Below, piece by piece: positions 796 through 30,218 of a stretch of DNA of 49,357 nt. Origin of the DNA: Candidatus Methanoflorens crillii (lineage in GTDB: Archaea; Halobacteriota; Bog-38; Methanoflorentales; Methanoflorentaceae); contig PMMR01000049.1 of assembly GCA_003162175.1 (NCBI GenBank), positions 7,151 through 56,507 on the forward strand, written 5' to 3'. The position numbers and the translations under genes were made by a program. A model generated the notes under the pieces. That model saw only the letters and a program-made list of their open reading frames with translations. It was not told the DNA's origin and made no database searches. Numbering within the stretch: position 1 is the first letter of the stretch; every line of letters starts with the position of its first letter.

Positions 796-803
796 AAAAG
801 CGC

Positions 804-1061: not shown

Positions 1062-1071
1062 ATCGGCGTGC

Positions 1072-1299: not shown

Positions 1300-1365
1300 A
1301 TAATGTCACCATTTTTATATCAATTCAAGTAGATATAAGCTATACCCGTGCGTTAAAAAGCTTGC
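1300..1365. promoter_or_regulatory. Divergent promoter region
   Basis: These 66 bases separate two divergent genes and are rich in A+T. GATATAAGCTATA at about 1333-1345 can serve as a TATA element on both strands, and ATATAAAAA occurs on the minus strand at about 1313-1320. For the plus strand, a start about 25 bases downstream falls at about 1362. That makes the GTG at 1366 nearly leaderless. No operator was recognised. Confidence 0.4.
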
Positions 1366-2391: not shown

Positions 2392-2395
2392 GGAC

Positions 2396-3046: not shown

Positions 3047-3063
3047 AGAGGGGGAACCCCCTT
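3047..3063. terminator. Possible hairpin between convergent genes
   Basis: A short G5-AA-C5 inverted repeat lies exactly in the 16-base gap between the HAD gene and the convergent hsp20. Its two-base loop is tight and there is no T-run on either side, so it is weak evidence for a bidirectional terminator. Confidence 0.3.
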
Positions 3064-3551
3064 CATTCGACGCTAATGTGCGACTTCTCTTCTTCAGGTT
3101 GGACGCGTTTCAGCCTCACCTCAAGAACGCCATTTCGGTAGGTTGCCTTCGCGCTGTGTGGGTCAACCTTGACAGGCAGTTCAACGCTTTCAGAGTATTT
3201 TTTAAACTCGTTTTGGGCTTTGATATCGAGTCTGCTCTCTGTGGTGTCGAGCTGCACATCCGTTCGATCCACGCCGGGCATCTCGGCAATAACGTGAACT
3301 TCGTCCGTCGTCTCCATGACGTCAATCAGGGGCTTTCGCTCGTCCTCCATCTTGACGCTCCTGCCTAAGGGCTGGACATTCCCGAATTCTCGCACTTCTG
3401 GCGCTTCGCCCGGGTGCTGCGTCATTGAGAACCCGTAAATGAAGGGTTTCGGTTGCCCCCCTTCCTGCAGGTCTCGCAACATCTGATCCATCAGCTCATC
3501 GAATCCTTCACCGAAAAAGTCATCGAAAAAACTCCCTCGTTTTTTCGCCAT
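3063..3551 (-). CDS. hsp20: Small heat shock protein, Hsp20/alpha-crystallin family
   Basis: The 162-residue product is an ATP-independent chaperone that holds unfolding proteins. The N-terminal region (1-70) is Phe- and Gly-rich. The alpha-crystallin domain spans about 72-152 and includes the diagnostic NGVLEVRLKR near its end. A terminal ISV can serve as the I-x-I/V anchor that drives oligomer assembly. It is the last gene of an hsr1-cdc48-hsp20 cluster, 50 bases after cdc48. The same order is known from Archaeoglobus fulgidus, where it is one heat-shock operon. Confidence 0.93.
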   Translation of the reverse strand: MAKKRGSFFDDFFGEGFDELMDQMLRDLQEGGQPKPFIYGFSMTQHPGEAPEVREFGNVQPLGRSVKMEDERKPLIDVMETTDEVHVIAEMPGVDRTDVQLDTTESRLDIKAQNEFKKYSESVELPVKVDPHSAKATYRNGVLEVRLKRVQPEEEKSHISVE

Positions 3552-3601
3552 TTTTACGCCTCCTTCTCTTTCTTCACGCCGTTAATTCTATGTCTAGCAT
3601 C

Positions 3602-5842
3602 TCACGCATAACCTGCAAATTCAGGCTTTGCGGCCTGCTCCTTCGGCTCTTCTTCGGTAACAGAGAACTTTGCAAACTCCGTTGCGATCCTCTCGTACTG
3701 GTGAAGCATGTCGCGAGACGCCGTTGGCTTGACCCGATTGATAGCAGCGTACAGATGCGCTTTCGAAATCCGTATCGTCGCCGCCCCTTCTTTAACCTGC
3801 TCGGACGTCATGTCGTCTCGGATGAAGCCTCGAAGAGCGAGCATCGCGCCTTCTCTGCAAATTGCTTCGATATCGGCCCCGACGTATCCATCGGTCTCTT
3901 TGGCGAGCTGCTCGATGTCGACGTCGTCTGCCAGCGGCTTTCCGCGCAGGTGGATTGCAAATATCTGCGCGCGACTCGACACGTTTGGTGGCGGTATGTA
4001 CACGAGCCTGTCAAGTCGTCCGGGCCGTAGGAGCGCCATATCAACCATATCGGGCCGATTCGTTGCGCCGATCACCACCACGTCCTTTAGCTCCTCTAAG
4101 CCATCGAGCTCGGTCAGCAGTTGGCTCACTACGCGTTCCGTCACGTGCGAGTCTGAACTCGCCCCTCGGGTCGGTGCTACCGCGTCAAGCTCATCGAACA
4201 GGATGATGGTCGGTGAGACTTGCTTGGCGCGTCGAAACGTCTCGCGCACGCCTTTTTCCGACTCGCCCACCCACTTGCTCAACAGTTCGGGCCCTTTTAT
4301 GCTAATAAAGTTGGCTTCGCTTTCCGTCGCGACCGCCTTGGCTAGGAGCGTCTTTCCCGTCCCCGGTGGGCCGAAGAGCAAGACGCCTTTTGGCGGCTTC
4401 GTGTTGATCGTGCTAAACGCGTCAGCGAATTTTATTGGCCACTCCACGGCCTCTATCAGCTCTTGTTTGGGCGCTTCAAGCCCCCCGACGTCTTGCCATT
4501 TCACGTTCGGCGCCTCAACAAACACCTCGCGCATCGCTGATGGCTCGATGTTCTTCTGGACGTTCGTGAAGTCTTCCGCGGTGACCTGGAGCTTATCGAG
4601 CACATCTTGTGAGATCTCTTGTTCAAGGTCAATCTCGGGAAGGATCTTTCGAAGTGCGTGCATCGCCGCTTCTTTTGATAGGGCGGCGAGGTCAGCACCG
4701 ACGAAGCCGTGCGTCGTACGGGCAAGGTCCTCCAGGCGCACGTCGCCGGCGATGGGCATGCCCCTGGTGTGCACCTGTAATATTTGAAGACGACCAGCCG
4801 CATCGGGCACTCCAATTTCGATCTCTCTGTCAAATCGACCGGGCCTCCGCAGCGCGGGATCGATTCCTTCAGGACGATTGGTAGCGGCGATCACCACGAC
4901 CTCTCCGCGCGCCTCGAGGCCGTCCATTAGCGCGAGCAGCTGGGCGACGACGCGCCGCTCCACCTCCCCCGTGACTTCGCTCCGCTTGGGCGCGATCGCG
5001 TCGATCTCGTCTATAAAAATGATCGCGGGAGTATTGTCTGACGCTTCCTTAAACAGCTCCCGGAGGTGTTGTTCGCTCTCACCGTAAAACTTGCTCATTA
5101 TCTCCGGGCCGCTGATGTTGATGAAGTATGCGTCCGTCTCATTCGCGACGGCTTTCGCGATGAGTGTCTTTCCCGTGCCCGGTGGGCCATAGAGCAAGAC
5201 GCCTTTTGGCGGGTCGATGCCGAGCTTTTGGAATAGCTCGGGGTGCCGCAGCGGCAACTCAATCATTTCTCGAACCAAGGCGAGCTCTCGTTGGAGGCCG
5301 CCGATATCCTCGTAGGTGACGTGAGAAATCGAACGTTCCGCTGCCACCGTCGGCTTTTCTTTAAGCGTTATTTGCGTGCTCTTCCCAGCGATAACGATGC
5401 CTGCTGGCTGGGTGGCGGTGATCACAAAAGTTATCGGATTGCCCAGCATTTCGACCCGGAGCGTCTCGCCCTTCTGCACTGGACGCCCCTCGAGGAATCG
5501 CATGAGATAGTCTTCCCCACCGACGATACGCACCGGCTGGGTGGGGGCCAGCGTGATCTTGACGGCCGGATTCGATTTTGCCTTGCTAATGACGACCTTG
5601 TCGTCGATGCCCACGTGTGCGTTACCGCGAATGTTACCATCGATTCTGATTATGCCGAGGCCGCGGTCTTCTGGGTATGCCGGCCACACCACTGCGGCCG
5701 CTCTGTTGCGGCCCATTATCTCGATGATGTCGCCACTTACGAGCCCGAGTTGTCGCATGGTATCCATGTCGATTCGGGCGATACCTCTTCCCGCGTCGCG
5801 ATGATACGCCTCGACGACTTTAAGCGTTACTTCTTCTACCAT
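3602..5842 (-). CDS. cdc48: CDC48/VAT AAA+ ATPase
   Basis: This 746-residue protein is the archaeal p97/VAT homologue, a hexameric unfoldase that feeds or remodels proteins for the proteasome. The N-domain covers 1-185 (double-psi barrel plus the following subdomain). The D1 ATPase has Walker A GPPGTGKT at 219-226 and Walker [15 protein letters not shown]. The D2 ATPase has a second GPPGTGKT near 491-498 and [14 protein letters not shown]. Each has the second-region-of-homology ATNRP element. The C-terminal tail ends in FAGYA, resembling the aromatic C-terminal motif used for docking to the 20S proteasome. It lies between the ArsR-type regulator and hsp20. Confidence 0.96.
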
Positions 5843-5893
5843 TTTTCAATGTCTCCTATTTCGTGTGTGTGATGCGTTGATGAGCTTATCTCC

Positions 5894-6547
5894 CTACCTT
5901 GCTAGCCAGTACGTCTTTGCATCGATTCTTCTGATTTTCTCTCGTTTTTCGAGGTCGCGAAGGCGCTCTGACAATATCTGGGCGGGTATCGCGAGCCCTG
6001 CTGATAGCTGCTGGGCGGTCTTTGGCCCGGTAAGCAGCAGCGAAAGGATGTCATATTCAATGAAGTCGTGCGATATTCCGTCGATTTTCCGCGCGCCACG
6101 TTCCATCACTTCATTCATCAACTCTTGTACCCTTTGCTGGGCCCCCATCAGTTCGCGGTTTGCCCTTCTAAGGCTATCGAGTGTCTCAGCTACGTCGCCT
6201 AGACTGCGCGTCTTAAGTTGTATCTCGCCTATCGGAGTTGAGACCTCAATAACGCTTTGTTCCCTCTGTCCAGGGTTCGCAGTCTCAACGCCATAGCTGA
6301 ACGGAGAGATTTGAATCTCAAGCAGCACGTTATCGGCGATGTGGAAGTACTTCCGCCTTCGCTCGTCGACAATGAACGCGATGATGCCCGCCTGCTCGAG
6401 CATGCTCAGGTGGCTGATCACGGCCTTGGGCGCCACGTGAAGTCTTTCCGAGATCTCGGTCACGTAAAAAGGCCGCAGCGAAAGGAGTTTCAAAATATTG
6501 CGGCGATTTTCATTGCCGAGAATGTCAAGGAGGGCTGCTTCGTCCAT
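5894..6547 (-). CDS. hsr1: ArsR-type heat shock regulator, HSR1-like
   Basis: The 217-residue protein has an N-terminal winged helix (about 5-70) with a recognition region near HVAPKAVISHLSMLEQAGI. A middle section follows (about 115-160) with a likely coiled coil and then a second predicted winged-helix-like C-terminus (LSLLLTGPKTAQQLSAGLAI). It is the first gene of hsr1-cdc48-hsp20, the order known in Archaeoglobus fulgidus, where HSR1 represses its own heat-shock operon. Pyrococcus Phr is a comparable regulator of hsp20 and an AAA+ ATPase. A perfect CTAAC-N5-GTTAG repeat stands upstream of its start. The identification rests on gene order and the operator as well as the domain. Confidence 0.85.
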   Translation of the reverse strand: MDEAALLDILGNENRRNILKLLSLRPFYVTEISERLHVAPKAVISHLSMLEQAGIIAFIVDERRRKYFHIADNVLLEIQISPFSYGVETANPGQREQSVIEVSTPIGEIQLKTRSLGDVAETLDSLRRANRELMGAQQRVQELMNEVMERGARKIDGISHDFIEYDILSLLLTGPKTAQQLSAGLAIPAQILSERLRDLEKREKIRRIDAKTYWLAR

Positions 6548-6588
6548 TGCTCTTTCTTAGCGTGTCACGGTCGCAATGGATCGTAACA

Positions 6589-6603
6589 CTAACTTATAGT
6601 TAG
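6589..6603 (-). promoter_or_regulatory. Predicted HSR1 operator, CTAAC-N5-GTTAG
   Basis: CTAACTTATAGTTAG is a perfect inverted repeat 42 bases upstream of the hsr1 start. It matches the site I recall for A. fulgidus HSR1. On the minus strand the TATA element CTTTTATATAG at about 6612-6622 would start transcription near 6591, so the operator covers the transcription start. A repressor bound there would block the promoter. A further GTTAG half-site lies at 6622-6626, on the upstream edge of the TATA element. Confidence 0.75.
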
Positions 6604-7115
6604 TTTCAATTCTATATAAAAGTTAGTCAATCAGGCACTGGTGAAACAACGGTGAAATATGTTAGAAAACTGTTGAAAACACGGTTGTTGAACCAGAGAA
6701 GAAAAGTCCGAAGTCTGTAGAAAAAGTCGAGCATGTTGAGGACTCATTCTATAAAGTCTCCAATCAATAGAAGCTCCTGAACATGAGCAGCCGCCATCTT
6801 TCTCGTAACACTTTCCCCAAACATGCTCTTTGCGCACAGGACGTCGGAGCCAAGCTTCGGAAACAAAGGGGAGCTTCCGTTGTAGCTTTTGCTCCACGCC
6901 TAAATCTTCGTGCGCCTCCTCGTCAATGAATGCCGTACCTCAAGCTTGACTTTTCAAACAGGTGACAAAACTCGAGCGTCAACGTGTTGACAACTGGTGC
7001 GGCCCGCGACTTCAGATCACGGAACAGCGCCTCGTGGAAGATCACAACGCATTTATATGCAAATTGACGTTCATTATTGGGTGCACTATCTAGATTCAGA
7101 ACCTCGAAGCCGGGC
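6604..7115. other. Long intergenic region, possibly with a decayed gene
   Basis: Beyond the hsr1 promoter and the TATA element (TTTATATGC, about 7051-7059) of the next gene, no convincing gene is visible. A plus-strand reading from GTG 6652 begins VKYVRKLLKTRLLNQRRK and hits a stop. The next frame continues with SVEKVEHVEDSFYKVSNQ before another stop. This may be an eroded gene with a frameshift, or chance. Confidence 0.3.
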
Positions 7116-8036
7116 ATGTCCAAGCAAAATGACGAACTGAAGCGCCGTGTTCATGAGATCTTCCAGCCCACCCCTGTAGGCGAGGCCCGCATCGTTGCGG
7201 CGCGTCGTCGGGATGTTTCCACAGCTACGCGCGTACGCTTCTTCTTGATAGCGTTGATCTGGCTGCTCGTAGGTGTCGTCATACTCGCCAGCTATAGCGA
7301 CGTATACCAACGATACCACTACCTCTTTAACGCAGTCTTTGCCTTTGCAATCGTGGTTTTTACCATCGAACTCCTGCTCCGTGTGTGGTCATGCACGGTG
7401 GACCCGCGGTTCAGGGGTCCGATCAAAGGCAGACTAAAATGCCTTTTTACAACATCCCTGCTCATAAATCTGCTTGTCATTGTGCCTTTTTATGCCAAGC
7501 CGTTCTTTCCAGGAGCGGACGTACTGGTAAACGCGGCGATAATTCTTATCATCCTCAAGCTGCTAACGTACTCTAGTGTATTCAAGTTCGTCACCGATAT
7601 TCTGAAAGCGAAAAAAAACGAGCTCGTTACTGCGCTGGCAATCGACCTGATCTTGCTGATAACGTTCTCTAGTTTGATGTTCATTATTGAGCATGGCTCA
7701 GACCCGCGCGATTTTTCAAGCATTCCTGCTGCCGGGTGGTGGGCGGCACAGACTCTGACTACCGTTGGTTACGGCGATCTCGTCCCTACGACACCGCTCG
7801 GACAATTCTTGGCAGTTATTGCAATGTTCTTAGGCATAGCCACTTTTGCCATTCCAATTGCCATTATCGGCGCCGGATTCACCGAGGCATTCGAAGCACG
7901 ACGGAGCGGACAAGGGCAGGCGCAGGCCGCCGACCCGTGTAAATTGCTGGGTAATTTGGCCGATCTCAAAGAGCAAGGAGTCATCACCGAGGAGGAGTTC
8001 GCGGCCAAGAAACAGGAGCTTCTGACCAGACTCTGA
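7116..8036 (+). CDS. Potassium channel with SHOCT tail
   Basis: The 306-residue protein is an integral membrane K+ channel. Six hydrophobic segments precede and follow a pore loop carrying the selectivity filter TTVGYGD near residues 215-221. The segment in the S4 position has few positive charges, so strong voltage sensing is doubtful. The C-terminus (about 272-306, LGNLADLKEQGVITEEEFAAKKQELL) is a SHOCT-type short helical domain, common at the ends of oligomeric membrane proteins. I chose ATG 7116 over the TTG at 7077 because the TATA element near 7055 puts the transcription start at about 7080. It stands alone. Confidence 0.88.
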   Translation: MSKQNDELKRRVHEIFQPTPVGEARIVAARRRDVSTATRVRFFLIALIWLLVGVVILASYSDVYQRYHYLFNAVFAFAIVVFTIELLLRVWSCTVDPRFRGPIKGRLKCLFTTSLLINLLVIVPFYAKPFFPGADVLVNAAIILIILKLLTYSSVFKFVTDILKAKKNELVTALAIDLILLITFSSLMFIIEHGSDPRDFSSIPAAGWWAAQTLTTVGYGDLVPTTPLGQFLAVIAMFLGIATFAIPIAIIGAGFTEAFEARRSGQGQAQAADPCKLLGNLADLKEQGVITEEEFAAKKQELLTRL

Positions 8037-8183
8037 CGCCATTTGTTCGGACAAGCGAAGCTTAGGGCGACACGCAGACGTTTTGATGTGTACGGCCCCC
8101 CGCAGTCCGTTCACCATAGCGAAATCAGGCGAGACCAATACGCTTTTCCCGTGCGGGCCGTATGCTTAGTGAGGAGTGAACCA

Positions 8184-8870
8184 ATGGATATTATCTTTGC
8201 AATGGACATTCGAGGCGGAGTCGTCGTTAGAGGCTACAGAGGCGATCGAGAACGATATGAGCCCATTGAACGCCATAGTAAGATCTGCACGACATCAGAT
8301 CCGCTAAATGTCGTTGACGCCATTAAGCCGAGGAGGACGTACATCGCGGATCTCGATCGGATCCTCGGTTCGGGCAGCAACTCACTCATTATCCAACGCA
8401 TAGGCACACGCACAAAAACCCTCATCGACATAGGTATCCGGCGGCTCGATGACGTCCGGGAAGCCGAGCGAATCGGTGATACAGCGATAATTGGCACCGA
8501 AACGGGACGCCTCGACGTGATTCGAGCAGCTCAATCGATGCGGATCGCCGTTAGCATTGATTTGAAGGAGGGGAGTGCAGTGTCGCCCGATCCAGCACTT
8601 TCCGGAGATCCTCTCGGGGTTATCGAGAAGATGAACCTCTACAAGATGAGCGAACTAATCGTGCTGAACATCAATCTCGTGGGAACGAAGCACGGGGTCG
8701 ACTTTGATTTTATAGAGAGGGTGATCGACGTTTCGGGACATCCAATTGTCGTCGCTGGCGGAATAAAGAACAGTGAAGACTTGGATACGCTCGAAGATCT
8801 CGGGGCTGCAGGCGTGATTCTCTCGACGGCGATTCACGAAGAGATAATCCCGGTCGATCTCGTCCGATAG
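8184..8870 (+). CDS. HisA/HisF-family TIM-barrel protein
   Basis: The 228-residue product resembles HisA, the ProFAR isomerase of histidine synthesis. It starts IIFAMDIRGGVVVRGYRG, like the HisA Asp8 strand, has a second half with VSIDLKEG, and ends with a phosphate-binding VVAGGIKNSEDL...GAAGVIL pattern. It belongs to the archaeal HisA-like paralogues (I recall TIGR00734) rather than to HisA proper: the canonical HisA catalytic loops are altered and no his genes are near. GAGGAGTG at 8171-8178 fixes ATG 8184 as the start. The true reaction is unknown; a sugar-phosphate isomerisation or aldol step would suit the fold. Confidence 0.75.
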   Translation: MDIIFAMDIRGGVVVRGYRGDRERYEPIERHSKICTTSDPLNVVDAIKPRRTYIADLDRILGSGSNSLIIQRIGTRTKTLIDIGIRRLDDVREAERIGDTAIIGTETGRLDVIRAAQSMRIAVSIDLKEGSAVSPDPALSGDPLGVIEKMNLYKMSELIVLNINLVGTKHGVDFDFIERVIDVSGHPIVVAGGIKNSEDLDTLEDLGAAGVILSTAIHEEIIPVDLVR

Positions 8871-8897
8871 AGAACAAAAAACAAAAAAAGACGATCA
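8871..8897 (-). terminator. T-rich terminator after glnA
   Basis: Downstream of the glnA stop, the minus strand reads CTTTTTTTGTTTTTTG at about 8877-8892, preceded by a GCGGA...TCCGC inverted repeat at about 8899-8926. T-rich tracts of this kind end archaeal transcripts. It also lies directly after the convergent HisA-like gene. Confidence 0.55.
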
Positions 8898-8937
8898 GAG
8901 CGGAAAAGCCCGCCAGTTCTCCGCCCCAAAACGCTCT

Positions 8938-10269
8938 TTACAAGACTGGCAGGTACCGTCCGATCTCGTACTCCGACACCTGGATGCGATACTCATCCCA
9001 CTCTTTCTTTTTGAGTTGGATGAAGCGGTCAAAGACGTGATTGCCAAGTGCGCGTCGCACGAGTTCAGAGTTCTCGGTCTCTTTTATGGCGAGTCCCAAA
9101 TTCTCGGGGAGTGAGCCAATGCCATGCGCATCGAGCTGTTGCGGCGTCATTTTGAAGATGTCCTTCTCGACGGGGTCAGGGAGGTCGTAGCCCTTTTCCA
9201 TTCCGTCGAGCCCGCTTGCGAGCATTACCGCAAAGGCAAGGTAGGGATTACAGGCCGGATCGGGGCAACGCAGTTCTACCCTCGTCGCGAGCTCATTTCC
9301 GGGCTTATACATTGGCACTCTTATCAGTGCGGATCTATTTCGCCGCGCCCACGAGATGTAAACAGGCGCTTCATAGCCGGGGACGAGTCGCTTGTACGAG
9401 TTGACCCATTGGCTCATGACGAGACAGAATTCGTTCACGTGCTTCAACTGGCCGGCAATAAAGCCTTTACCCTGCTCTGACAGGTGGTACATGTCATTGG
9501 GGTCGAAAAATGCATTCTTCTTTCCCCTAAACAGTGATTGATGCGTATGCATGCCGCTTCCGTTCTCACCGAGTATGGGCTTCGGCATGAACGTGGCATA
9601 GTAGCCTGCCCGGAGCGCGATCTCCTTAACAACGAGGCGGTACGTCATGACGCTGTCGGACATGGTCAAAGCGTCCGTGTAACGGAGATCAATCTCGTGT
9701 TGGCTAGGGCCAACCTCGTGGTGACTATACTCGACGTGAATGCCCATGTCTTGCAGCGCAAATATCGTGTCTCTCCGAAGATCAGTCGCCTGATCCAAAG
9801 GGGTAAGATCGAAGTACCCGCCGGTATCAATGATATCGGCGCATTGATTGTTTGCAAAATAGAAATACTCAAGTTCCGGCCCAATGTTGAATGTCAGGCC
9901 TTTCTTCTCTGCTCGCTGGAGATTTCTTTTGAGGACGTACCTAGGGTCTCCCTCATAAGGCTTCCCCGACGGTTCAAGAACGTCACAGATGATTCGCGCG
10001 ACGCCCTTTTCTTTTGGCCGCCAGGGCAATATCGCAAAGGTGCTGGGATCCGGCTTCGCAATCATATCTGACTCCTCAATCGTTTGATAGCCAATGATTG
10101 AGGAGCCATCGAAGCCCATTCCTTCATCGAGAGCCCCTTCAAGCTCGTCGCTTGTTATTGCAAAGCTTTTCAGAGCGCCGAGGATGTCCGTAAACCAGAG
10201 TCGAATGAACTTTATGCCATGTTCTTCGACTTGGGCTACAACATAGTCTTTGTCCTTCGTTTCTGCCAT
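8938..10269 (-). CDS. glnA: Glutamine synthetase type I (GSI-alpha)
   Basis: The 443-residue enzyme makes glutamine from glutamate, ammonia and ATP. Characteristic segments include MGFDGSSIIGY near residue 51, a metal-ligand Glu in NIGPELEYF, HHEVGPSQHEID, the glutamate-binding NGSGMHTHQS and a C-terminal region with RVELRCPDPACNPYLAFA. The length is that of GSI-alpha, without the insertion of adenylylated GSI-beta enzymes, so it is unlikely to be controlled by adenylylation. Control is probably transcriptional through the operator at 10299-10312 and the adjacent nrpR. It has its own promoter. Confidence 0.97.
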   Translation of the reverse strand: MAETKDKDYVVAQVEEHGIKFIRLWFTDILGALKSFAITSDELEGALDEGMGFDGSSIIGYQTIEESDMIAKPDPSTFAILPWRPKEKGVARIICDVLEPSGKPYEGDPRYVLKRNLQRAEKKGLTFNIGPELEYFYFANNQCADIIDTGGYFDLTPLDQATDLRRDTIFALQDMGIHVEYSHHEVGPSQHEIDLRYTDALTMSDSVMTYRLVVKEIALRAGYYATFMPKPILGENGSGMHTHQSLFRGKKNAFFDPNDMYHLSEQGKGFIAGQLKHVNEFCLVMSQWVNSYKRLVPGYEAPVYISWARRNRSALIRVPMYKPGNELATRVELRCPDPACNPYLAFAVMLASGLDGMEKGYDLPDPVEKDIFKMTPQQLDAHGIGSLPENLGLAIKETENSELVRRALGNHVFDRFIQLKKKEWDEYRIQVSEYEIGRYLPVL

Positions 10270-20089: not shown

Positions 20090-21901
20090 ATGCCAGAAGA
20101 TATATTAACTCTTTTTTCACAATTTGGCCTCAAAAAAGAAGCTGGGGGGGTTTACCTTCATCTGCTACAGACCGGACGGCGAACGGCAGTTGAAGTAGCC
20201 GAATCGCTTCATCTCACTAGTCACGGTGCTAACAAGGTCCTGCTAGAGCTTTCGAAACAAGGACTCGCTAAGCGTATATCGACCAATCCGGAAACGTTCG
20301 TAGCTGCGTACCCGTCCTCCTTGCTAAATCCTGCCATTAGTAAAGAGGCCGCGAAGTTACAGAGCCTCAGCGAGGCGCGAGATACGCTGCTCGAGCTGTG
20401 GGACGTTGAGCGCACAAAAGCGCAAGGCCTGCCCGTCGAATGGTGTCCGATCGAAGAGGGCTTCATCGTTTTGTATGACAAAGACGATATTATCGACAGG
20501 CGTCTCGAGACCTTTCACGCGACAGAAAAAAGGCTCTGGATCATCTCTACCGAGTTTTGGCTCCTTCGATGGGACAAAGTGCTTCACGACTATTTTGTGG
20601 GTGATGAGGACAAATGCAGGATAGAAGATCTAAGGATCCTGCTTCCGATTACGCCAAACAATATCGATGCAGTAAAGCAGCTCTCTACGTGCTTTAAGAT
20701 ACGACACGCACCAATGATGAGCAGTTTCGCGGTCGTTATTTCAGACTGCAAAGAGGCGATGTATACGGGCGTAACAAAGGATCTCGACGAGTTAGAGCGA
20801 GTCGAACTCACCCCGTCGCTGTGGTCGAACAACAGCGGATTTATTGAAATCCAGAGTTCCCTGTTTCAATCCCTCTGGGATAAAGGGATAGACGCCCGTT
20901 TGAGGATACAAGAGATAGAGACGGGTAAGCCCATCGAGGTCACGCGCGTCATTACCGACTACCAGGAGATCGCGCAAGACTTCGAGTCGCTCATAAACAC
21001 GGCCCAAAAAGAGATATTCTTGTGGAGCAGAAGCGAGGCTTTGCCGATTTTGGCACCACTCATTCCAAAGGATGCGCGACAACGAGGTATTGACGTGGTT
21101 GTAATGGCCGAGATTACTAAGGATAATCTGCAGGCAGCTCAAGAAATCGCGGAACGTGCGGATGTGCGCCATATCCCTCAGATTGTGCATAGCACGGGGG
21201 TAATCATCGATCAGCAGGCAATGCAAGTGTTGCTTTATTCATTTAGTGAAAAGGGCGCAGAGCTCTATAATTCAATTTATACGAATACACAGAGCTTCGT
21301 TGAAACGCAGCACTCGATGATGGAAGACATGTGGCACTCAGGAATCGAGCTGCGGTACAGAGAAGAAGAGCTGACTGCAGGACGAGTGGTGCAGACGATA
21401 CAAGTCATAAAGAAGAGGGAGAACGTCTACAAGGCTTTCTATGAGATGCTCGACAGGTCGAAAAATGAATTCAACGTGATACAAACTCGTATGGGGGTAA
21501 AACGGCTCTATAATTTGATCAAGGATAGAGAGATGCCCAAGATAACGTATCGTTTGCTGGCACCTATTGAAAGCGTCAACATCGAAGAAGCACGTCTGCT
21601 TACGAAGTATTTTGAAATTCGTCATCTTGAATCGGAGACTGGGGCAGGAATTTTTATTTCCGATGACGACAAGCTGCTCGGAACGAGTTATGTTTACGAC
21701 ACCGGCGATACAGATAAAGTGATATACAAGTCAGCCTTCAGAACGGACATTTCTGAGTTCATTTTTATCGAAAAGGAGCTCTTTAACAGCTTCTGGTACA
21801 ACGCGACGCCGCTAAGTATTAGAGAGCAGGAGCTCCCAATTAACGTGGCAAAAGGTGTGATCGACGCGGAGAAGCCTGAAAAGCGACCTACAAGACGCTA
21901 A
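20090..21901 (+). CDS. TrmB-like transcription regulator with three tandem sensor modules
   Basis: The 603-residue protein has a TrmB-type winged helix at about 1-80. It then carries three related modules at about 122-278, 284-430 and 436-583. The repeats share IRHAPMM/VRHIPQI/IRHLESE followed by a hydrophobic strand and Asp, and each closes with a W/F-W aromatic plus a basic-acidic tail (LWDKGIDARLRIQEIE, MWHSGIELRYREEEL, FWYNATPLSIREQEL). This pattern is a degenerate phospholipase-D-like fold as in TrmB-family sensors. A usual TrmB has one such unit. AGAGGT precedes the start. It is a lone gene, so its targets and ligand are unknown. Confidence 0.8.
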   Translation: MPEDILTLFSQFGLKKEAGGVYLHLLQTGRRTAVEVAESLHLTSHGANKVLLELSKQGLAKRISTNPETFVAAYPSSLLNPAISKEAAKLQSLSEARDTLLELWDVERTKAQGLPVEWCPIEEGFIVLYDKDDIIDRRLETFHATEKRLWIISTEFWLLRWDKVLHDYFVGDEDKCRIEDLRILLPITPNNIDAVKQLSTCFKIRHAPMMSSFAVVISDCKEAMYTGVTKDLDELERVELTPSLWSNNSGFIEIQSSLFQSLWDKGIDARLRIQEIETGKPIEVTRVITDYQEIAQDFESLINTAQKEIFLWSRSEALPILAPLIPKDARQRGIDVVVMAEITKDNLQAAQEIAERADVRHIPQIVHSTGVIIDQQAMQVLLYSFSEKGAELYNSIYTNTQSFVETQHSMMEDMWHSGIELRYREEELTAGRVVQTIQVIKKRENVYKAFYEMLDRSKNEFNVIQTRMGVKRLYNLIKDREMPKITYRLLAPIESVNIEEARLLTKYFEIRHLESETGAGIFISDDDKLLGTSYVYDTGDTDKVIYKSAFRTDISEFIFIEKELFNSFWYNATPLSIREQELPINVAKGVIDAEKPEKRPTRR

Positions 21902-22151
21902 CTCTGACGACGGCCCGTACAGCGTATCTGCTTCTGAAAAGTTCGACTAACATCAGGTAGCGGCCCAACGCTCTGACGCCGAGCGCGTACCCGCGTCGTC
22001 TAAAAATACCCAAAAACTTTGGACACTTGGCTGGCTTTCTGCTGAACTGCTCTTTGCAAGTATACCTTGTTGAGCACGTATTCTGATTTAAAGATGCTCA
22101 AAGCAACATTTTTTATACATAACACGACGTCAATATGTGGAGGGTGTCATC

Positions 22152-22370
22152 ATGACGCGTGGAGTATTGCATAAAGACGTTTCGACGCTTAGCGGGGTCA
22201 ACGTAGGAAAGGTAAGAGATGTTCTAATTAACTGGGATAACAAGGAAATTTCACTAGATGTCTCAAAAGGCTTGCTCAAAGGGGAAACAATTGTCCCTTG
22301 GTCGAAAATCATGAGCGTTGGCGATATCATTATAGTTTCTGATGATCTAGCCCCTGAAGGCAGTAAGTGA
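22152..22370 (+). CDS. PRC-barrel domain protein
   Basis: The 72-residue protein reads as a single PRC-barrel beta domain (DVSTLSGVNVGKVRDVLINWDNKEISLDVSKG ...). PRC-barrels bind RNA-processing or photosynthetic partners elsewhere, but the archaeal small ones are uncharacterised. GGAGGGTG at 22138-22145 sets the start at ATG 22152 rather than the earlier GTG. A TATA element (TTTTATAC, about 22109-22116) gives a leader of about 15 bases. It is monocistronic, with 122 bases to the next gene. Confidence 0.8.
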   Translation: MTRGVLHKDVSTLSGVNVGKVRDVLINWDNKEISLDVSKGLLKGETIVPWSKIMSVGDIIIVSDDLAPEGSK

Positions 22371-22492: not shown

Positions 22493-23344
22493 ATGAAAGG
22501 TTTTGCCGTTGTGTTCGACTGCGCGGGTACACTTCTCGAGAAACATCGCGTAGCAAAAGATATTGACCAAGGCAAGCTCTTGCATCAGATAGTATCCCTC
22601 AGTTTCATAGGGACGCGGCTGGACTACGTGCTTGCTGTGTTTCAGCTGGATGTTCCCAAAGACCTAGAAGGCGTGCCCACTGACTTGTCCATCGCTGATT
22701 TCTTGGACATCTACCACGTAGACCTTGTAGTTGTTTGCTCCAACGTCCCGGTTGCTGAAACGACGGTGTTACGCGCTGTTGCGCGGGATACAAAGAGTCG
22801 AGTAAAGGATCTAGTCGATGTGGTCGACGAAGTCAGCAAAAGTTGCAGCGCGTCGTACTTCACCGGCGCTGCGGCAATCGTTGATATTGAACAAGGCCAT
22901 ATTCCGTACGTTCTGGCCACATGCGGAGAACTCTTTGAGTCGGCGCGTCCTGTGATTGATGAACTCAAACGTATTGGGGGCGACATCTACGTAGCCTCAG
23001 GCGATGCGAAAAACACCCTCTATGCCCTCGCTGACCGCATTGATATTCCGCACGAGGACGTCAGGGATATCGCAACTCCGAGCGCAAAGGAGCAACTGGT
23101 CTACGAACTTAAGGAACAATACCGTTACGTCGTGATGGTGGGCGATGGGATCAATGACATCCCCGCATTGAGAGCCGCGGACCTAGGAGTTCTAACGGTA
23201 CAACAGAAAGAGGAACGTCCCGCAACGCTCTACGAATCAGCCGATCTCGTAATAAAAGACTTAACGCTCTTGCCTGGCATATTAAAAAACATTATTACGA
23301 ATAACGGTTATAACGGTACGGGGTCGAAGGAGGCAACACTTTAA
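22493..23344 (+). CDS. Soluble P-type-ATPase-like HAD protein, coupled to atwA
   Basis: The 283-residue protein has HAD motifs of the P-type ATPase kind without any membrane segment. Motif I is FDCAGTLL: Asp9 is kept but the second acid is Ala, as P-type ATPases also lack it (DKTGT). Motif II is ASGDAKNT and motif IV is VGDGINDIPALRAADLGV. I recall this family as COG4087 and its members near atwA in methanogens. The stop overlaps the ATG of atwA (TAATG), so the two proteins are likely made together. A role in MCR activation or repair is inferred from this coupling alone; the substrate is unknown. Confidence 0.8.
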   Translation: MKGFAVVFDCAGTLLEKHRVAKDIDQGKLLHQIVSLSFIGTRLDYVLAVFQLDVPKDLEGVPTDLSIADFLDIYHVDLVVVCSNVPVAETTVLRAVARDTKSRVKDLVDVVDEVSKSCSASYFTGAAAIVDIEQGHIPYVLATCGELFESARPVIDELKRIGGDIYVASGDAKNTLYALADRIDIPHEDVRDIATPSAKEQLVYELKEQYRYVVMVGDGINDIPALRAADLGVLTVQQKEERPATLYESADLVIKDLTLLPGILKNIITNNGYNGTGSKEATL

Positions 23345-24939
23345 TGGCCGTCTTGATAGAAGTCGAAAACTTAGTCAAAACGTTCGGCGAATTTGAGATA
23401 TTAAAAGGCATCGATTTCACCCTTGACGAGGGCGAGGTACTCGGAATCATAGGCAAGAGCGGGGTCGGAAAAACCGTCTTACTGCACGCCATACGAGGAT
23501 TGAAAGAATACAAACCTACCAGCGGTAAAATCTATTACAACGTAGCGTATTGTCGAGACTGTCGACACGTCGACGTGCCCAGTCGAGTCGGACAACCGTG
23601 CCCCATATGTGCCCGAAAGATGCAATTCTTCCGAGTCGACGCGTGGGCAGACGAAGAGAGCGATTTGCAACGGGACGTGAGAAGCCGCGTTGCGATAATG
23701 CTACAGCGCACTTTCGCTCTTTACGGCGACGAACGCGCCATAGAAAACGTTATGAGGAGCTTCACAGAACGCGGGTACGGCGATTCTGAAGCAATTTATA
23801 AAGCATCTGAACTTATTGATCAGGTTAAGTTATCACATCGAATGATGCACATGGCGCGCGATCTCAGCGGCGGAGAGAAACAGCGGGTTGTTTTGGCGCG
23901 CCAACTGGCAAGATCGCCGATCATCTTACTCGCTGATGAACCGACTGGCACCCTGGACCGGAAGACAGCGGAGATCATCCACAAAATAATCCGACACGAG
24001 GCCAAAACGAACGATATGGCTGTGCTCGTTACCTCGCATCTTCCCGAAGACATTGAATCGATGGCTGACAGAGCAATACTGCTCGACAACGGGATAATCG
24101 CCAAGGAAGGCGCCCCGAAAGAAGTCGTTGATGAGTTTTTGAGCACTGTTGGGGAAATAAAGAAACACGAGATCGCCTCTGGCGACACGATAGTGAAAGT
24201 GGCCGAGCTTGAAAAGAAATACGTGACACTCGATCGCGGAGTGATCAGAGCCGTCAGCAACGTTTCGTTTGATATCCAAGAAGGGGAAGTCTTTGGCCTC
24301 ATCGGATTAAGCGGGGCCGGAAAAACAAGCGTTTCCAAGATCATCGCAGGTGTGCTCGAGCCGACGAATGGCGAGGTGCGGGTGCGCATTGGGGATGATT
24401 GGGTGGACATGACGATGCCCGGACCCGACAACAGAGGAAGAGCAAAGCCGTACATTGGCGTGCTTTACCAGGAATATGACCTTTACCCCTTCCGCGACGT
24501 TTTGGATAACCTCACGAGTAGCATCGGCTTGGAACTTCCCGCTGAACTTTCCGAACACAAAGCGGTACAGACTCTGACGGCAGCCGGCTTCAGCGAGGCG
24601 ACGAGCGAGAGCATCCTTGCTAAGCTGCCAGATGAGCTAAGTCAAGGAGAGCGGCATCGGGTGGCTCTCGCACAGGTGCTGATTCGAGAGCCCAACCTCG
24701 TCATACTAGACGAACCCACAGGAACGATGGATCCAATCACCAAGAAAGACGTGTCAAACTCAATTCTGACTGCGCGCGCGGAAATCGGCGAGACGTTTAT
24801 GATCGTATCGCACGATCTCGATTTCGTTCGGGAGGTCTGCGACCGGGCCGCTCTCATGCGCGCGGGCAAGATCATCTCCATCGGGCCGACCGCGCAGGTG
24901 CTTGACGTTCTGACAGAGCAGGAGAAAGCGGCCAGCTGA
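23344..24939 (+). CDS. atwA: Methyl-coenzyme M reductase activation component A2
   Basis: The 531-residue protein is a twin ABC ATPase. It supplies ATP hydrolysis for the reductive activation of the nickel cofactor of MCR. Domain 1 has Walker A GKSGVGKT at 37-44, signature LSGGE at 174-178 and Walker B LLADEP. Domain 2 has GLSGAGKT at 321-328, signature LSQGE at 432-436 and ILDEPTG. A four-cysteine insert (C70, C73, C86, C89) lies in domain 1. The protein lacks membrane spans. It overlaps the HAD gene and is followed by mmp3 after 16 bases. Confidence 0.95.
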   Translation: MAVLIEVENLVKTFGEFEILKGIDFTLDEGEVLGIIGKSGVGKTVLLHAIRGLKEYKPTSGKIYYNVAYCRDCRHVDVPSRVGQPCPICARKMQFFRVDAWADEESDLQRDVRSRVAIMLQRTFALYGDERAIENVMRSFTERGYGDSEAIYKASELIDQVKLSHRMMHMARDLSGGEKQRVVLARQLARSPIILLADEPTGTLDRKTAEIIHKIIRHEAKTNDMAVLVTSHLPEDIESMADRAILLDNGIIAKEGAPKEVVDEFLSTVGEIKKHEIASGDTIVKVAELEKKYVTLDRGVIRAVSNVSFDIQEGEVFGLIGLSGAGKTSVSKIIAGVLEPTNGEVRVRIGDDWVDMTMPGPDNRGRAKPYIGVLYQEYDLYPFRDVLDNLTSSIGLELPAELSEHKAVQTLTAAGFSEATSESILAKLPDELSQGERHRVALAQVLIREPNLVILDEPTGTMDPITKKDVSNSILTARAEIGETFMIVSHDLDFVREVCDRAALMRAGKIISIGPTAQVLDVLTEQEKAAS

Positions 24940-24955
24940 CGGACGCATAGTAGGC

Positions 24956-26476
24956 ATGTGCGCCAAGTTCATCGTTCTTGATGGGAAACAGGTTGTGCTC
25001 GATCGCGCAACCCGCACGCTCCGCGATGCGTTTGAACTCACGAATACCCCCTACCGCGACGGCCTGCTTGTGGGCGTCATAAAGGGGAGAAAAACGCAAA
25101 AACTGGACGTCATCAAGGAATATGCGGTTTACACAAACAAAGGCGAGATCAGAATTGAGGTCGATGAACCGAGCCGGCGCCTTTGGCTGCGCACGTATGA
25201 AATATTTGTTGGGACCAAGGTCCACTGGTCTCAGCCCCAGATAGTATCAGCCGGCCCCGTTCCGAGCGACCTTGAGATCGATCGCGGTGAACGAGAATAC
25301 GAGCGCTGGGATATTACATACAGCCTTGGCGGGTTTGATCAGACAAATACGTACCTTTCGTTTATAAAGAAGAGGCATAGCGCCGCGTATGGAACAAACG
25401 CCGTCGTTGGAAAAGCAGTCGCAGGCAGAAATGTCCTCGAAAAACTCGAGAATGGAGACGAAATTCAAAGAATCGAGCCGATTGAGCGACTCGAATATAT
25501 CACCGACAAGTTCACGACCTCTGACTTTGACATCGAACTTGAAGATGGAATGGAAGTCTACACCTACTTCAAGGCAACGCTCTCGAGAGATGCGTCTGAG
25601 GGCGTAGAACACTTCTTGGCCCTTGCTAAGGACGGCTGCTATCGAGTGGATGCAGTAACAAACACCTATGTCGTTTCTACGCGCTTACACGGTCGATCGT
25701 CCCCCTTTGAAATGCTCGATGCGAGGAGCGAGGGCGCAATCACCGTCCGTACGTCTGGAAACGACGGTGGCAACGTATATATTTACAAGAGAGATACGCC
25801 CTCAAATTCTAGCCATTCGGTCATCGGCTATGTCAGCGAGGGGCTGGAGCTCGTCAAAATCGCGACGCCGGGGCAGAGATTGCGCGTGTGTACCGATCCC
25901 ACCCGCATCATGTTGTTGGGCTTGCGCGTCGCGGCAATAGAGGAGGAGGTCAATCGATTAGGTATCTCTCTTGAGCGCGAAGGGTACGATGGCGAAGACG
26001 CCGTCGTTGTGCATCAATCGCCGCTCAACACGGTCGACATTCTCAAAGCTAGAAGTGTGAAAACGTTTGCAGTCCCACATGATAAGCTTGTTAAAATTGA
26101 GCTTTATGACGATCGTGCTCCTAAAACGGTAGCGTTCGTGAGGACGGTCACGGGTTTGAGAGATAATCCCGTAGGCTCATTGCAAGCTTACGTGAAATAC
26201 GGCAAGACTATCATGTTCCGCGCGCAGACGGCAGAGAAGTTTGACATTGTGCCGGAAAACACGCCCACGACAAAAGTGAGCGCCGGCGAAATCGGTGTTT
26301 CAAATCGCTCCACTAAGTACGCAGGACTTATCGGAGTACGACTTGAAGATAACGAAAAGTACGGACCAACCGGTGAGCGGTTCAACAGCACCAACATCGT
26401 TGGGAGGATACTGCACACAAGCCCGCTTCAAAACGTGCGCGAAAATGAAACAATATACGTACACGAAGCTCTGTGA
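24956..26476 (+). CDS. mmp3: Methanogenesis marker protein 3
   Basis: The 506-residue product matches Mmp3, a soluble protein that co-purifies with A2 and MCR in the activation complex. Two related beta-rich segments resemble cyclophilin-like folds: one around YERWDITYSLGGFDQTNTYLSF and a C-terminal one from VKIELYDDRAPKTVAF to GERFNSTNIVGRI. The N-terminal 130 residues form a separate unit with a ubiquitin-like beginning (FIVLDGKQVVLDRATRTLRDAF). The length is normal for the family. It closes the first transcription block; the next gene, mmp6, has its own A+T-rich promoter. Confidence 0.93.
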   Translation: MCAKFIVLDGKQVVLDRATRTLRDAFELTNTPYRDGLLVGVIKGRKTQKLDVIKEYAVYTNKGEIRIEVDEPSRRLWLRTYEIFVGTKVHWSQPQIVSAGPVPSDLEIDRGEREYERWDITYSLGGFDQTNTYLSFIKKRHSAAYGTNAVVGKAVAGRNVLEKLENGDEIQRIEPIERLEYITDKFTTSDFDIELEDGMEVYTYFKATLSRDASEGVEHFLALAKDGCYRVDAVTNTYVVSTRLHGRSSPFEMLDARSEGAITVRTSGNDGGNVYIYKRDTPSNSSHSVIGYVSEGLELVKIATPGQRLRVCTDPTRIMLLGLRVAAIEEEVNRLGISLEREGYDGEDAVVVHQSPLNTVDILKARSVKTFAVPHDKLVKIELYDDRAPKTVAFVRTVTGLRDNPVGSLQAYVKYGKTIMFRAQTAEKFDIVPENTPTTKVSAGEIGVSNRSTKYAGLIGVRLEDNEKYGPTGERFNSTNIVGRILHTSPLQNVRENETIYVHEAL

Positions 26477-26528
26477 TTTATATTGCTAGATAATTATAAT
26501 ATTAACCGCTGACATAATTACGTTACGA
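26477..26528 (+). promoter_or_regulatory. Promoter of the mmp6-mmp7 block
   Basis: The 52 bases between mmp3 and mmp6 are the most A+T-rich part of the cluster: TTTATATTGC at 26477-26486 and AATTATAATATTAAC at about 26493-26507. The second would start transcription near 26525, giving a leaderless or very short-leader mmp6 message. The gap divides the cluster into two blocks. Confidence 0.55.
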
Positions 26529-26987
26529 ATGAGTGGTGCAATGGTATCAGATGAGATTACAAAAATGGTCGTTCTTGCAGACTCAAGCCCCATTTTGCCC
26601 AGCGAGCTGGCATTACGGGCCTATGAATTATCGACTGACGCCGTGGTGAAAGAGACGTGTTTCGGGCTCATTGTTACGGGATCAGAGAAAGCGGTCAATG
26701 AAACTATAGAAGAGCTGAGGAAACTGGATCCATCCGGGATTTTCGTCAAGGACCGCGGGTTCCCACCAGGCGATTCAAGAAGATGTCGCGCTGTTAGGGG
26801 GGGCGGCGCACGACCAGGCTTCCACCAGCTCGAGAAGGAATCTGCCATTCTTCCGAGCATATCGTACGGTTTAGAGACCATCGACGACCCAGTGGACGCG
26901 AAAGAACGAAAAACACGCGACAAGCTCAAGATCGACCGCTTGATCGAGATCATTGAAGAGCAATCAAAAGAGGATGTCAATGGCTAA
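26529..26987 (+). CDS. mmp6: Methanogenesis marker protein 6
   Basis: The 152-residue protein matches Mmp6, restricted to organisms with MCR. The N-terminal half is a small alpha/beta domain, and the middle carries PSGIFVKDRGFPPGDSRRCRAVRGGGARPGFHQLEKE, a conserved basic/glycine stretch of the family. The C-terminus is a charged helix. The exact role is not known. ATG 26529 and ATG 26541 are both possible. Its stop overlaps the start of mmp5 by 8 bases, so translation is coupled. Confidence 0.9.
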   Translation: MSGAMVSDEITKMVVLADSSPILPSELALRAYELSTDAVVKETCFGLIVTGSEKAVNETIEELRKLDPSGIFVKDRGFPPGDSRRCRAVRGGGARPGFHQLEKESAILPSISYGLETIDDPVDAKERKTRDKLKIDRLIEIIEEQSKEDVNG

Positions 26988-27438
26988 AATACTCATATTT
27001 CCATCAAACAGTCTGATTCTATCTGATTTGGTCGCGCGATTCGGTCACGAGCCGCTTACGCTGATGCGCGTCATACGACGGAAAATAACGGAAGTCGGAA
27101 TAGATAGCCCACCGATTAACGTCACACCAGAAGACCCGAAGAGAGGACTCAAATATGCGGCGGTCGACGTCCCTTCTGGTGTGCGCGGGCGGATGGCGCT
27201 TCTTGACCCCCTGATAGAAGAGGCTGAAGCCGCTATCATCGTTCACGAGGCCGATTACTCATTTGGATGTATGGGGTGCGCCCGAACGAATGAACTAGTC
27301 AAGTACATTGTTCGCAACAAGGATATTCCGCGCTTAGAGCTCGCATATCCGACGAATGACGATGAGGCGCGTGAATTCGTGCAAAAGATACGCGACTTCT
27401 GCGAGTCCTTGACCCACAAAGCGGAGGTACCCGCGTGA
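26980..27438 (+). CDS. mmp5: Methanogenesis marker protein 5
   Basis: The 152-residue product matches Mmp5. It begins [25 protein letters not shown] and contains [19 protein letters not shown], with a conserved Cys-x-x-Cys. This may bind metal or redox-cycle. The function is unknown. The start at 26980 is supported by AGAGG (26968-26972) and by overlap with mmp6; the upstream TTG frame is not needed. Its stop overlaps the GTG start of mmp15 (GTGA). Confidence 0.9.
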
Positions 27439-28667
27439 CGAGAAAAATCAGGATAGCGCACCTCGCCTGTGGCTCCGAATACAGTGGGATCCAAAAAGAG
27501 ATTGAACATGCTGTCGCGGCCGTGAATGCTGAGATTGTATATCCCGAAGTAGATACGGACACGATCAAAGACGCTGTACGCGAGTGGGGACTAGAAGTCG
27601 CCAGCCCTGATTTGCAGCTTATGATAGCGCGGGCCAAATCTATAGTCGAAGGTGGCTTCCCAGTCGACGCGGTGTTTATAACTACGTGCTTTCGATGCGC
27701 TGAAGGTGCCATAACGCGAAGCGAATTGCGGCGTTATATCCATGAGCGTGCAAATTTGCCAGTTATTAGCTACTCGTTTACTGAACGGACTACTGCGGAA
27801 ACGCTCCTTACGCGGATGGAAGCTCTCGTGACCACCGCGCTGAGACGAACCTTGCTCGCGCGCGAAAAACAGACAGGATTAACTGCCGGCATCGACTCAG
27901 GATCGACCACCACAAAAGCAGTGGTAATGCGAGATAACGAGATAATTGGAGTTGGCTGGGTCGACACCACCGAAGTATTGAAGAGTGCCGAACTTGCGTA
28001 TACGACAGCGCTGAAGATGGCAGGAGTAAACAAATCTGAAATTCAAGCGCTTGGGACCACGGGTTACGGTCGCTTGCTTGTCGGAGAAGCGATGAAGGCT
28101 GCGCTCGTTCAAGAAGAGCTCACCGTAAACTCGAAGGGTGCGGTTTATCTCGCAGAGAAACAAAAAGGACCCGCGACGGTCATCGACATTGGCGGCATGG
28201 ATAACAAGGCTATTTCGGTCATGGATGGCATTCCCGGCAGCTTCACCATGGGCGGAATTTGCGCCGGAGCTTCAGGTCGTTTTCTCGATATGACCGCACG
28301 TCGATTGGGGGTCGACATCAGTGAATTAGGCCCCTTGGCGTCCAAAGGAGACCATAACCGCGTGACCATGAACAGCTACTGCATCGTTTTCGGAACGCAG
28401 AGCCTTGTCAACGCACTCTCGCTTGGAGCTAGCAAAGAAGACGTCGCAAGTGCGGCCTGCTACAGTGTCGCAGAACAGGTCTTCGACCAGCAGCTTCAAG
28501 AGCTAGAAATTGTTGAACCCGTCATCATGGTCGGTGGAACCTCGCTCATCAGCGGTCTCGTGGAAGCGATGCAAGACTTGCTCAGAACGAAAGTTGTGGT
28601 GCCTAAATATTCACAATACATCGGCGCAGTCGGATCTGCGCTACTCGCCAGCGGGTTTGTAGAATGA
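27435..28667 (+). CDS. mmp15: Methanogenesis marker protein 15 (BadF/HgdC-type ATPase)
   Basis: The 410-residue protein has an N-terminal 150-residue domain with a Cys pair region ([11 protein letters not shown]) and then an acetate/sugar kinase-Hsp70-actin ATPase domain. The latter has the phosphate-binding [14 protein letters not shown] near 152-165 and [14 protein letters not shown] near 273, the pattern of 2-hydroxyacyl-CoA dehydratase activators that hold a [4Fe-4S] cluster between two subunits. An ATP-driven low-potential electron donor for MCR activation is therefore a reasonable inference, not a demonstrated function. GTG 27435 overlaps the mmp5 stop. Confidence 0.92.
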
Positions 28668-28732
28668 GGCCCCGATGAATCAAAACTCAGCGAGGCATCG
28701 CGCGAACCATCTACAAAGAGATTGCATACGAC

Positions 28733-29296
28733 ATGATCGATTCTGAAAAAGTGGCAGTAGAGTCTCCCGATACACAGGGGGCGCGGTTAATTGAAGAATT
28801 GACGTCTGACATCTTGTCTGACCTGGACGTCGCCCAATCGCTGAACAACATCAGAATCTTCATCGATCCCGACGAACCTGTGTTCATCTTATATGGTAAG
28901 CTTGCGATCTCACTTCCCGATATAAAGATCTCCGACGTCGCTACGATGACGCATACCGACGATGGATTGAAGCTGGATATCAAGAACGAACGGTACGTCA
29001 ACGATCTGCTCGATAAGCTCGTTGCGCGATACGGCAAGGCCAACATTTTGCAGCTCGATCGGTACACCGTCCTTGTCGCGACCGACGACGATATTCCTGA
29101 CGAAACCATCTATGAACCCACGACGGAGCTGAAGCGCAAAGTCATCGATTCAATACGGCGCGTCGCGCCCGAAGGCTACAGAATCATAAAGCACGACATT
29201 ACGGATGACTACATCCTGTTCATAGCGTCAGAGGAGCCGATCAAACAGGAATGGATAGATCGGGGGCGCACGTTGCTTAAAGAGGCGGGATTGTAG
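28733..29296 (+). CDS. mmp17: Methanogenesis marker protein 17
   Basis: The 187-residue product matches Mmp17, reported in the MCR activation complex together with Mmp3, Mmp7 and A2. The sequence opens EKVAVESPDTQGARLIEEL and contains IRIFIDPDEPVFILYGKLAIS, a conserved beta-rich section. The 65 bases before it have no clear promoter, so it is probably still part of the mmp6 transcript. The frame is open for 54 more bases upstream of ATG 28733 but holds no alternative start. It ends one base before mmp7. Confidence 0.91.
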   Translation: MIDSEKVAVESPDTQGARLIEELTSDILSDLDVAQSLNNIRIFIDPDEPVFILYGKLAISLPDIKISDVATMTHTDDGLKLDIKNERYVNDLLDKLVARYGKANILQLDRYTVLVATDDDIPDETIYEPTTELKRKVIDSIRRVAPEGYRIIKHDITDDYILFIASEEPIKQEWIDRGRTLLKEAGL

Positions 29297-29297
29297 G

Positions 29298-30218
29298 ATG
29301 TTAGAGCCTCTCATGTACACTGGTGGTGTGTACCGACACGACGAGTTGATGGAGCTTGTTGAGGACCTCGGCGGCCACCTTCTGCAAAAGAACGTCATGC
29401 AGCTCGAAGTCGTGCTCTTGATACTCGTTCCAGCGGACGATATAAGCGCGGTAGAGCAAAAAGCGGCAGAGCTCTTAGGAACGATCACTAGAGCACCCCT
29501 CATCGGCACCGAAATCGCCGTTGTCGCACCGAGTCTCGCCTATCACCACATGCCCCATCCGACGTGCGATATCGCAGAGTATCTTCGAAGGAACGGCGCA
29601 AAGACGAATATCATTGGCCTGGCTCGAGGAGTGGGACGGCGCGCGGCACAGCTGACAAAGAGCGAGCGCGGGCTGATAAATGAGCACGATTTGGCGTTGT
29701 TTATTCTTGGAGATTTCCTGAGTTGCATAACAGACGTCAAATATCAGCTCTATGAGGATCTCGACGTCCCGATAATAGTAACTGGAGGCCCGGAATGCGA
29801 GGCAGTTCCCTACGCGTATGCATACATTGGGGGAATAGGACGACGCGCTAAAGGGTTTCACCGAGAATCTGAGTTCGCAATCCTGGATAACATCGTCGGA
29901 ATGATCAGCAAGGCTCTAGATGAGAGACGCGAAGAGCTTGAGAAGGACCCACTATCGGTGAGCCCATTCCGCCTCATGGACGAGATCACACAACAGATTC
30001 CAGAAGTTGGCGAAAGCCTCTCTCCCACACCAATTACGATGCATTTAGACGGTATGCGAATTAAGCTTCCTTACGACGAGTACTATGAAAAAATACGGAA
30101 TGTGAAATTCATTGAAGGCCCGACCCTCTCAGACGTAGCGGAAGTTAGACCTTCGTTTATGCGTGAATACCTTGTCTTAACGATCAAAACGAGATCGGTC
30201 GCGGGATTTGCTCTCTAG
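29298..30218 (+). CDS. mmp7: Methanogenesis marker protein 7
   Basis: The 306-residue protein matches Mmp7, a component of the MCR activation complex. Landmarks are MYTGGVYRHDELMELVEDLGG at the start, YHHMPHPTCDIAEYLRR and GPECEAVPYAYAYIGGIGRRAKGF, with conserved Cys and His that may be metal-cluster ligands. The Mmp7 and Mmp17 pair is usually encoded together, as here, with a one-base gap. It is the last gene of the plus-strand mmp block; mmp10 lies convergent 68 bases on. Confidence 0.93.
   Translation: MLEPLMYTGGVYRHDELMELVEDLGGHLLQKNVMQLEVVLLILVPADDISAVEQKAAELLGTITRAPLIGTEIAVVAPSLAYHHMPHPTCDIAEYLRRNGAKTNIIGLARGVGRRAAQLTKSERGLINEHDLALFILGDFLSCITDVKYQLYEDLDVPIIVTGGPECEAVPYAYAYIGGIGRRAKGFHRESEFAILDNIVGMISKALDERREELEKDPLSVSPFRLMDEITQQIPEVGESLSPTPITMHLDGMRIKLPYDEYYEKIRNVKFIEGPTLSDVAEVRPSFMREYLVLTIKTRSVAGFAL

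Follow-up and report, generated by a model that had tools for sequence, protein, structure and literature searches.

How does a regulator of the TrmB family come to carry three copies of one module, and what might such a protein do beside the genes for MCR activation? The question is raised by a gene in a 49,357-nucleotide stretch of DNA (contig PMMR01000049.1 of assembly GCA_003162175.1, forward-strand positions 7,151 to 56,507; hereafter the window, numbered from its first letter) from Candidatus Methanoflorens crillii. The GTDB genus concerned, Bog-38, is Methanoflorens stordalenmirensis and is a dominant hydrogenotrophic methanogen of thawing permafrost (PMC10805028). A 94% identity and a same-genus label also point to Bog-38 as the genus of the window. 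The close relatives of the source genome are MAGs from peat, bog and fen, as their record titles state. What the gene encodes is a domain architecture new to a known family, confined to one genus within the genomes of the phylum that were searched and located beside a central operon.

Domain layout and internal repeat

The regulator and its parts, all on the + strand of the window, are as follows.
20090-21901, +: coding sequence of the three-module TrmB-type regulator, 603 aa, from the open reading frame and Pfam
20120-20314, +: winged helix, residues 11-75, Pfam PF01978, with Asn48 where the recognition helix of the family has Tyr
20315-20419, +: helical linker, residues 76-110, in the place of the TrmB coiled coil
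20420-20932, +: module 1, residues 111-281, PLD-like, from hhalign alignment to modules 2 and 3 and to single-module paralogs
20933-21385, +: module 2, residues 282-432, matching PF11495 positions 4-137, with a degenerate HKD motif (H and D kept, K lost)
21386-21835, +: module 3, residues 433-582, the most conserved part of the protein

An earlier note, made from the letters of the window alone, had described one winged helix followed by three related units of about 150 residues, and this description stands. The winged helix matches PF01978 over residues 11-75 (5e-8, 33.1 bits against a Pfam cut-off of 25.6), and the aligned motifs lie at the positions that had been named (IRH at 204, VRH at 359 and IRH at 510; LWDKG at 262, MWHSG at 414 and FWYNA at 568). 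A helix is predicted for residues 76-108 in a low-confidence full-length model, and the linker residues 76-110 are poorly conserved. The second Pfam family, PF11495 (Regulator_TrmB), matches in three stretches, with 2e-9 and 37.5 bits for the whole protein against a cut-off of 22.2; the best stretch (residues 287-425) spans only positions 4-138 of the 233 in the profile. When the modules were scanned singly, module 2 matched PF11495 (1.2e-6), and modules 1 and 3 gave no match to it.

Since module 2 alone reaches PF11495, the repeat was tested directly, module against module. Profiles of each module, built from seven aligned orthologs, were compared by hhalign, with 60 column-shuffled controls for every module pair. 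The E-values were 1.9e-8 for modules 1 and 2, 1.2e-8 for modules 1 and 3 and 1.4e-4 for modules 2 and 3, with scores of 54, 55 and 31 against shuffled maxima of 23, 19 and 16, respectively. An alignment of 18 modules shows no variation in the R-H, I, D, F, W and E positions, which fall where the note had placed the motifs. That one module is usual in TrmB relatives, as the note had also said, is true of the ordinary members, from which the regulator departs with its three modules and a Methanocella-like form, described below, with two.

Fold of the modules and the loss of catalysis

A full-length AlphaFold2 model made with seven close orthologs reached a pLDDT of only 36 and was not used for the fold, whereas module 2, modelled with the 18 internal module copies as alignment rows, reached 81. 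The top matches of this model in a Foldseek comparison with the PDB included Pyrococcus furiosus TrmB (3qph, E 3e-6), the PLD nuclease Nuc (1byr), the sugar-binding domain of TrmB (2f5t) and TrmBL2 (5bpi); to Nuc it aligns with a TM score of 0.71 and an E-value of 6e-6. The predicted structure shows module 2 to have a PLD/TrmBL2-like fold, and by homology modules 1 and 3 probably share a PLD-like fold with it. A search of PDB sequences with the whole protein or with the module profile returned nothing meaningful.

The HKD residues had been called degenerate, and an alignment with a related archaeon's true PLD protein bears this out: of HxKxxxxD, module 2 keeps the H and the D without the K, and modules 1 and 3 keep the D only. 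The motifs required for PLD catalysis, HxKxxxxD and GSxN, are not found in the modules, which, having lost the HKD residues, are judged from sequence to be catalytically dead PLD-like domains. Two other PF11495 matches were considered as regulators and rejected. The first, of 749 aa (L053:503-2752, on contig C33 of genome G051), has two PLD domains with intact HKD motifs, so that the PF11495 model evidently also catches true PLD proteins. The other, of 355 aa in genome G103, has a signal-peptide-like start and no visible winged helix.

Whether the modules sense a ligand is a separate matter. In TrmB, six of the seven sugar contacts (Asn305, Gly320, Met321, Val324, Ile325 and Glu326) lie in the second, C-terminal subdomain of the EBD; TrmBL2 is without this sugar-binding subdomain, and no effector domain is recognised in it (PMC4158304). 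The second subdomain is absent from the modules, the best PF11495 match ending at profile position 138 of 233; because the match stops short of the sugar contacts, the modules lack the known ligand pocket. On this evidence we do not class the regulator as a sugar-sensing protein of the TrmB/TrmBL1 type. With TrmB and TrmBL1 of P. furiosus, which combine PF01978 with a full PF11495, it has in common the winged helix, the helical linker and the PLD-like first EBD subdomain; it differs in having three modules rather than one, each without the second subdomain (sugar contacts Asn305 and Gly320-Glu326), and in having Asn or Ser at the equivalent of Tyr50. With TrmBL2 (5BPD/5BPI), an archaeal chromatin protein, it shares the winged helix, a PLD-like part without the sugar-binding C-terminus and the fold match, whereas TrmBL2 has one module, a conserved DNA-binding domain and 264 aa. 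The modules are shown to be best described as TrmBL2-like PLD modules, and the three stacked sensors that the note had imagined, integrating several ligands or acting as a stepwise switch, are a conjecture.

Distribution and origin

Each of the seven genomes of GTDB Bog-38 ("Methanoflorens") has the three-module architecture, full length in six and split over two contigs in one. Full-length relatives were found in none of about 390 genomes of the phylum outside the genus (in a sample of 394), in which the class of Bog-38 is represented by this genus only, and viral contigs held no relatives. With 0 of about 390 non-genus genomes carrying it, the three-module form is not one already common in the phylum, in keeping with the earlier note.

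A search with the module profile did reveal open frames of 593-598 aa in three of the four genomes of a Methanocella-like family. They encode TrmB-V4R proteins of 581-592 aa:
L094:8182-9927, TrmB-V4R protein
L095:9190-10956, TrmB-V4R protein
L096:9289-11067, TrmB-V4R protein

In each, two modules in tandem stand between a winged helix and a Cys-rich V4R-like domain, so that TrmB proteins with two modules are present in a second lineage. They resemble the regulator in the tandem modules behind the winged helix and in total length, and differ from it in their V4R-like third domain, in their gene neighbourhood and in an identity of only about 21-22%. The three genes lie near ABC-transporter and transporter-like genes.

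The modules of the regulator are closest to one another, through module 1; next come the single-module paralogs in their own genome and the first module (S1) of the Methanocella-like proteins. The second module of those proteins (S2) and the single TrmB proteins of the Methanocella-like family are less similar to them than are the same-genome paralogs, near which S1 scores. These paralogs (L056 and L058) share a module with the R-H, D, F, W pattern and differ in being about 255-280 aa long with one module. The pattern of similarity, at identities of 20-29%, fits duplication within the lineage. The best explanation of the gene, which as a whole we place slightly below an even chance, would be that it is a TrmB-family member specific to this lineage, whose single C-terminal PLD-fold module became three in the common ancestor of the genus by multiplication.

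DNA-binding domain and selection

The Tyr with which the TrmB recognition helix contacts DNA is Asn48 in the regulator and Ser in its most distant ortholog (L021); the paralogs have Y or H. In MreA of Methanosarcina acetivorans, a TrmB-family protein, this Tyr is likewise replaced by Ser, and MreA still regulates methanogenesis genes (PMC4158304), so that its loss proves neither a loss of function nor exclusion from the family. MreA differs from the regulator in its length (139 aa) and in having no module at all.

Identity to L021 is 60% over residues 1-110 and 89% over module 3, and dN/dS, estimated at a dS of about 1, is about 0.02 for module 3 but 0.11-0.13 for the winged helix. Of the folded parts of the protein, the winged helix evolves fastest and is conserved least. 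In the orthologs of the paralog L058, the N-terminal part, winged helix included, equals or exceeds the module in conservation (identities of 92/91, 81/74 and 76/65% for the N-terminal part and the module, respectively). These comparisons of dN/dS and identity indicate that purifying selection on the regulator is strongest on module 3, the opposite of what is seen in L058. Conservation this extreme in module 3 suggests that it has a specific partner or ligand.

Gene neighbourhood and upstream DNA

The gene had been described as standing alone, with no metabolic context, and here the earlier note does not hold: the gene is co-directional with, and 5' of, a PRC gene and a HAD-atwA-mmp operon, in an order conserved across the genus. 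The features downstream of it are these.
22104-22130, +: non-coding block 5' of the PRC gene, conserved between species and containing a TATA-like stretch, from an alignment of six genomes
22152-22370, +: small PRC-barrel gene, 72 aa, PF05239 (6e-6), conserved in six genomes
22493-30218, +: MCR activation/maturation cluster, HAD - atwA (component A2) - mmp3 - mmp6 - mmp5 - mmp15 - mmp17 - mmp7, by NCBIfam families

The gap between the regulator and the operon is 590 bp and holds the 72-aa PRC-barrel gene. Beyond mmp7, on the opposite strand, are mmp10 and frh hydrogenase genes; upstream of the regulator lies a PNPOx gene, with genes for a PIN protein, a GfcR-like protein and LeuRS on the opposite strand. 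Wherever the region is assembled in the genus, the order regulator-PRC-HAD-atwA-mmp is the same. Since collinearity within the genus extends over the entire 18-kb block, this synteny is weak evidence of a functional link.

The cluster HAD-atwA-mmp3-6-5-15-17-7 is itself widely shared among methanogens. A different, single-module TrmB gene stands beside it in two of four Methanocella-family genomes, directly 5' and co-directional in one, divergent and close by in the other:
L127:4545-5324, similar single-module TrmB gene next to the HAD-atwA-mmp cluster
L128:5061-5873, similar single-module TrmB gene next to the HAD-atwA-mmp cluster

No TrmB gene lies beside the cluster in the other two of these genomes or in most other methanogens examined, and outside the genus a TrmB-like gene is near atwA at only 3 of 20 loci, in one of them about 6 kb away. 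The conserved neighbourhood, together with the TrmB genes by the same cluster in Methanocella-family genomes, makes local control of MCR maturation plausible.

The block at 22104-22130 is almost identical between species and far more conserved than the intergenic DNA around it; its own genome contains no second copy that differs by less than 3 mismatches. In the DNA upstream of three genes (regulator, PRC and HAD), a search found none of the known TrmB sites (TACT-N3-AGTA and others) and no operator or dyad common to the three regions.

Proposed role and alternative explanations

We favour, while placing it somewhat short of probable, a TrmB-family transcription regulator with a tandem array of PLD-fold modules that acts on its own and neighbouring promoters. 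The precedent of MreA, which regulates methanogenesis genes without the DNA-contact Tyr, supports this local control; the want of a shared operator, a winged helix that is the least conserved part and lacks the key Tyr, and the missing sugar-binding subdomain weaken it. The protein would still regulate transcription, as a dimer joined by the helix that follows its winged helix, and its tandem modules would form an effector array, an oligomerisation array or both. Given their odd number, two modules may pack within the chain as a PLD-type pair, leaving the conserved third for contact between chains or for an effector. The most likely targets would be the adjoining PRC and HAD-atwA-mmp genes and its own promoter, and MCR maturation would thereby follow an energy or redox signal.

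Three other explanations bear on the same observations. The regulator might act mainly at distant sites, on another regulon, and owe its place beside the mmp operon to chance inheritance; we consider this rather unlikely, as the co-directional placement and the different TrmB gene by HAD-atwA in two Methanocella-family genomes speak for a local role, although a distinct PRC gene, preceded by a conserved promoter-like block of its own, intervenes before the operon and the region is generally collinear in the genus. It is unlikely, too, that the protein is a global or chromatin protein like TrmBL2, binding DNA non-specifically through its winged helix and using the modules as an oligomerisation scaffold with no ligand. 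The match of the modules to the PLD part of PF11495 only, the place of TrmBL2 among the best fold matches, the drift of the recognition helix with loss of the specific DNA-contact Tyr and the failure to find a conserved operator are all in its favour, but in TrmBL2 proteins Tyr50 is present and the DNA-binding domain is well conserved (PMC4158304), the opposite of what the regulator shows, and the conservation of module 3 points to a specific partner or ligand.

That the regulator no longer binds DNA at all, its modules being a protein-protein adaptor and its winged helix a relic or a protein-binding domain, we regard as very unlikely. The N-terminal part does evolve fastest (60% identity to L021 against 89% for module 3), with Asn or Ser for Tyr; yet the winged helix is still recognisable (5e-8) and under purifying selection (dN/dS 0.11-0.14), and MreA functions despite the same loss. 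If the preferred reading, local transcription control, is pressed to a dedicated switch for MCR maturation, with an intrachain module pair, one interchain contact and a module 3 that reads a core methanogenesis metabolite or an Mmp or AtwA protein, it becomes quite unlikely.

Significance

No transcriptional regulator devoted to MCR activation turned up in a limited literature search. Should the regulator switch the MCR maturation genes, it would bear on methane output, Methanoflorens being a dominant methanogen of thawing permafrost. Multi-module TrmB regulators are not listed in a 2014 review of the family (PMC4158304), and the tandem modules in two archaeal lineages show that the family builds such proteins.

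Elsewhere in the source genome, and on contigs of its congeners, we observed an array of TrmB paralogs that recurs across genomes of the genus (L056; contig C23, positions 1-9055). It contains a double winged helix with one module (at least 401 aa, running off the contig end), module-only ORFs and winged-helix-only ORFs, and looks like domain shuffling or decay in an expansion of the TrmB family.
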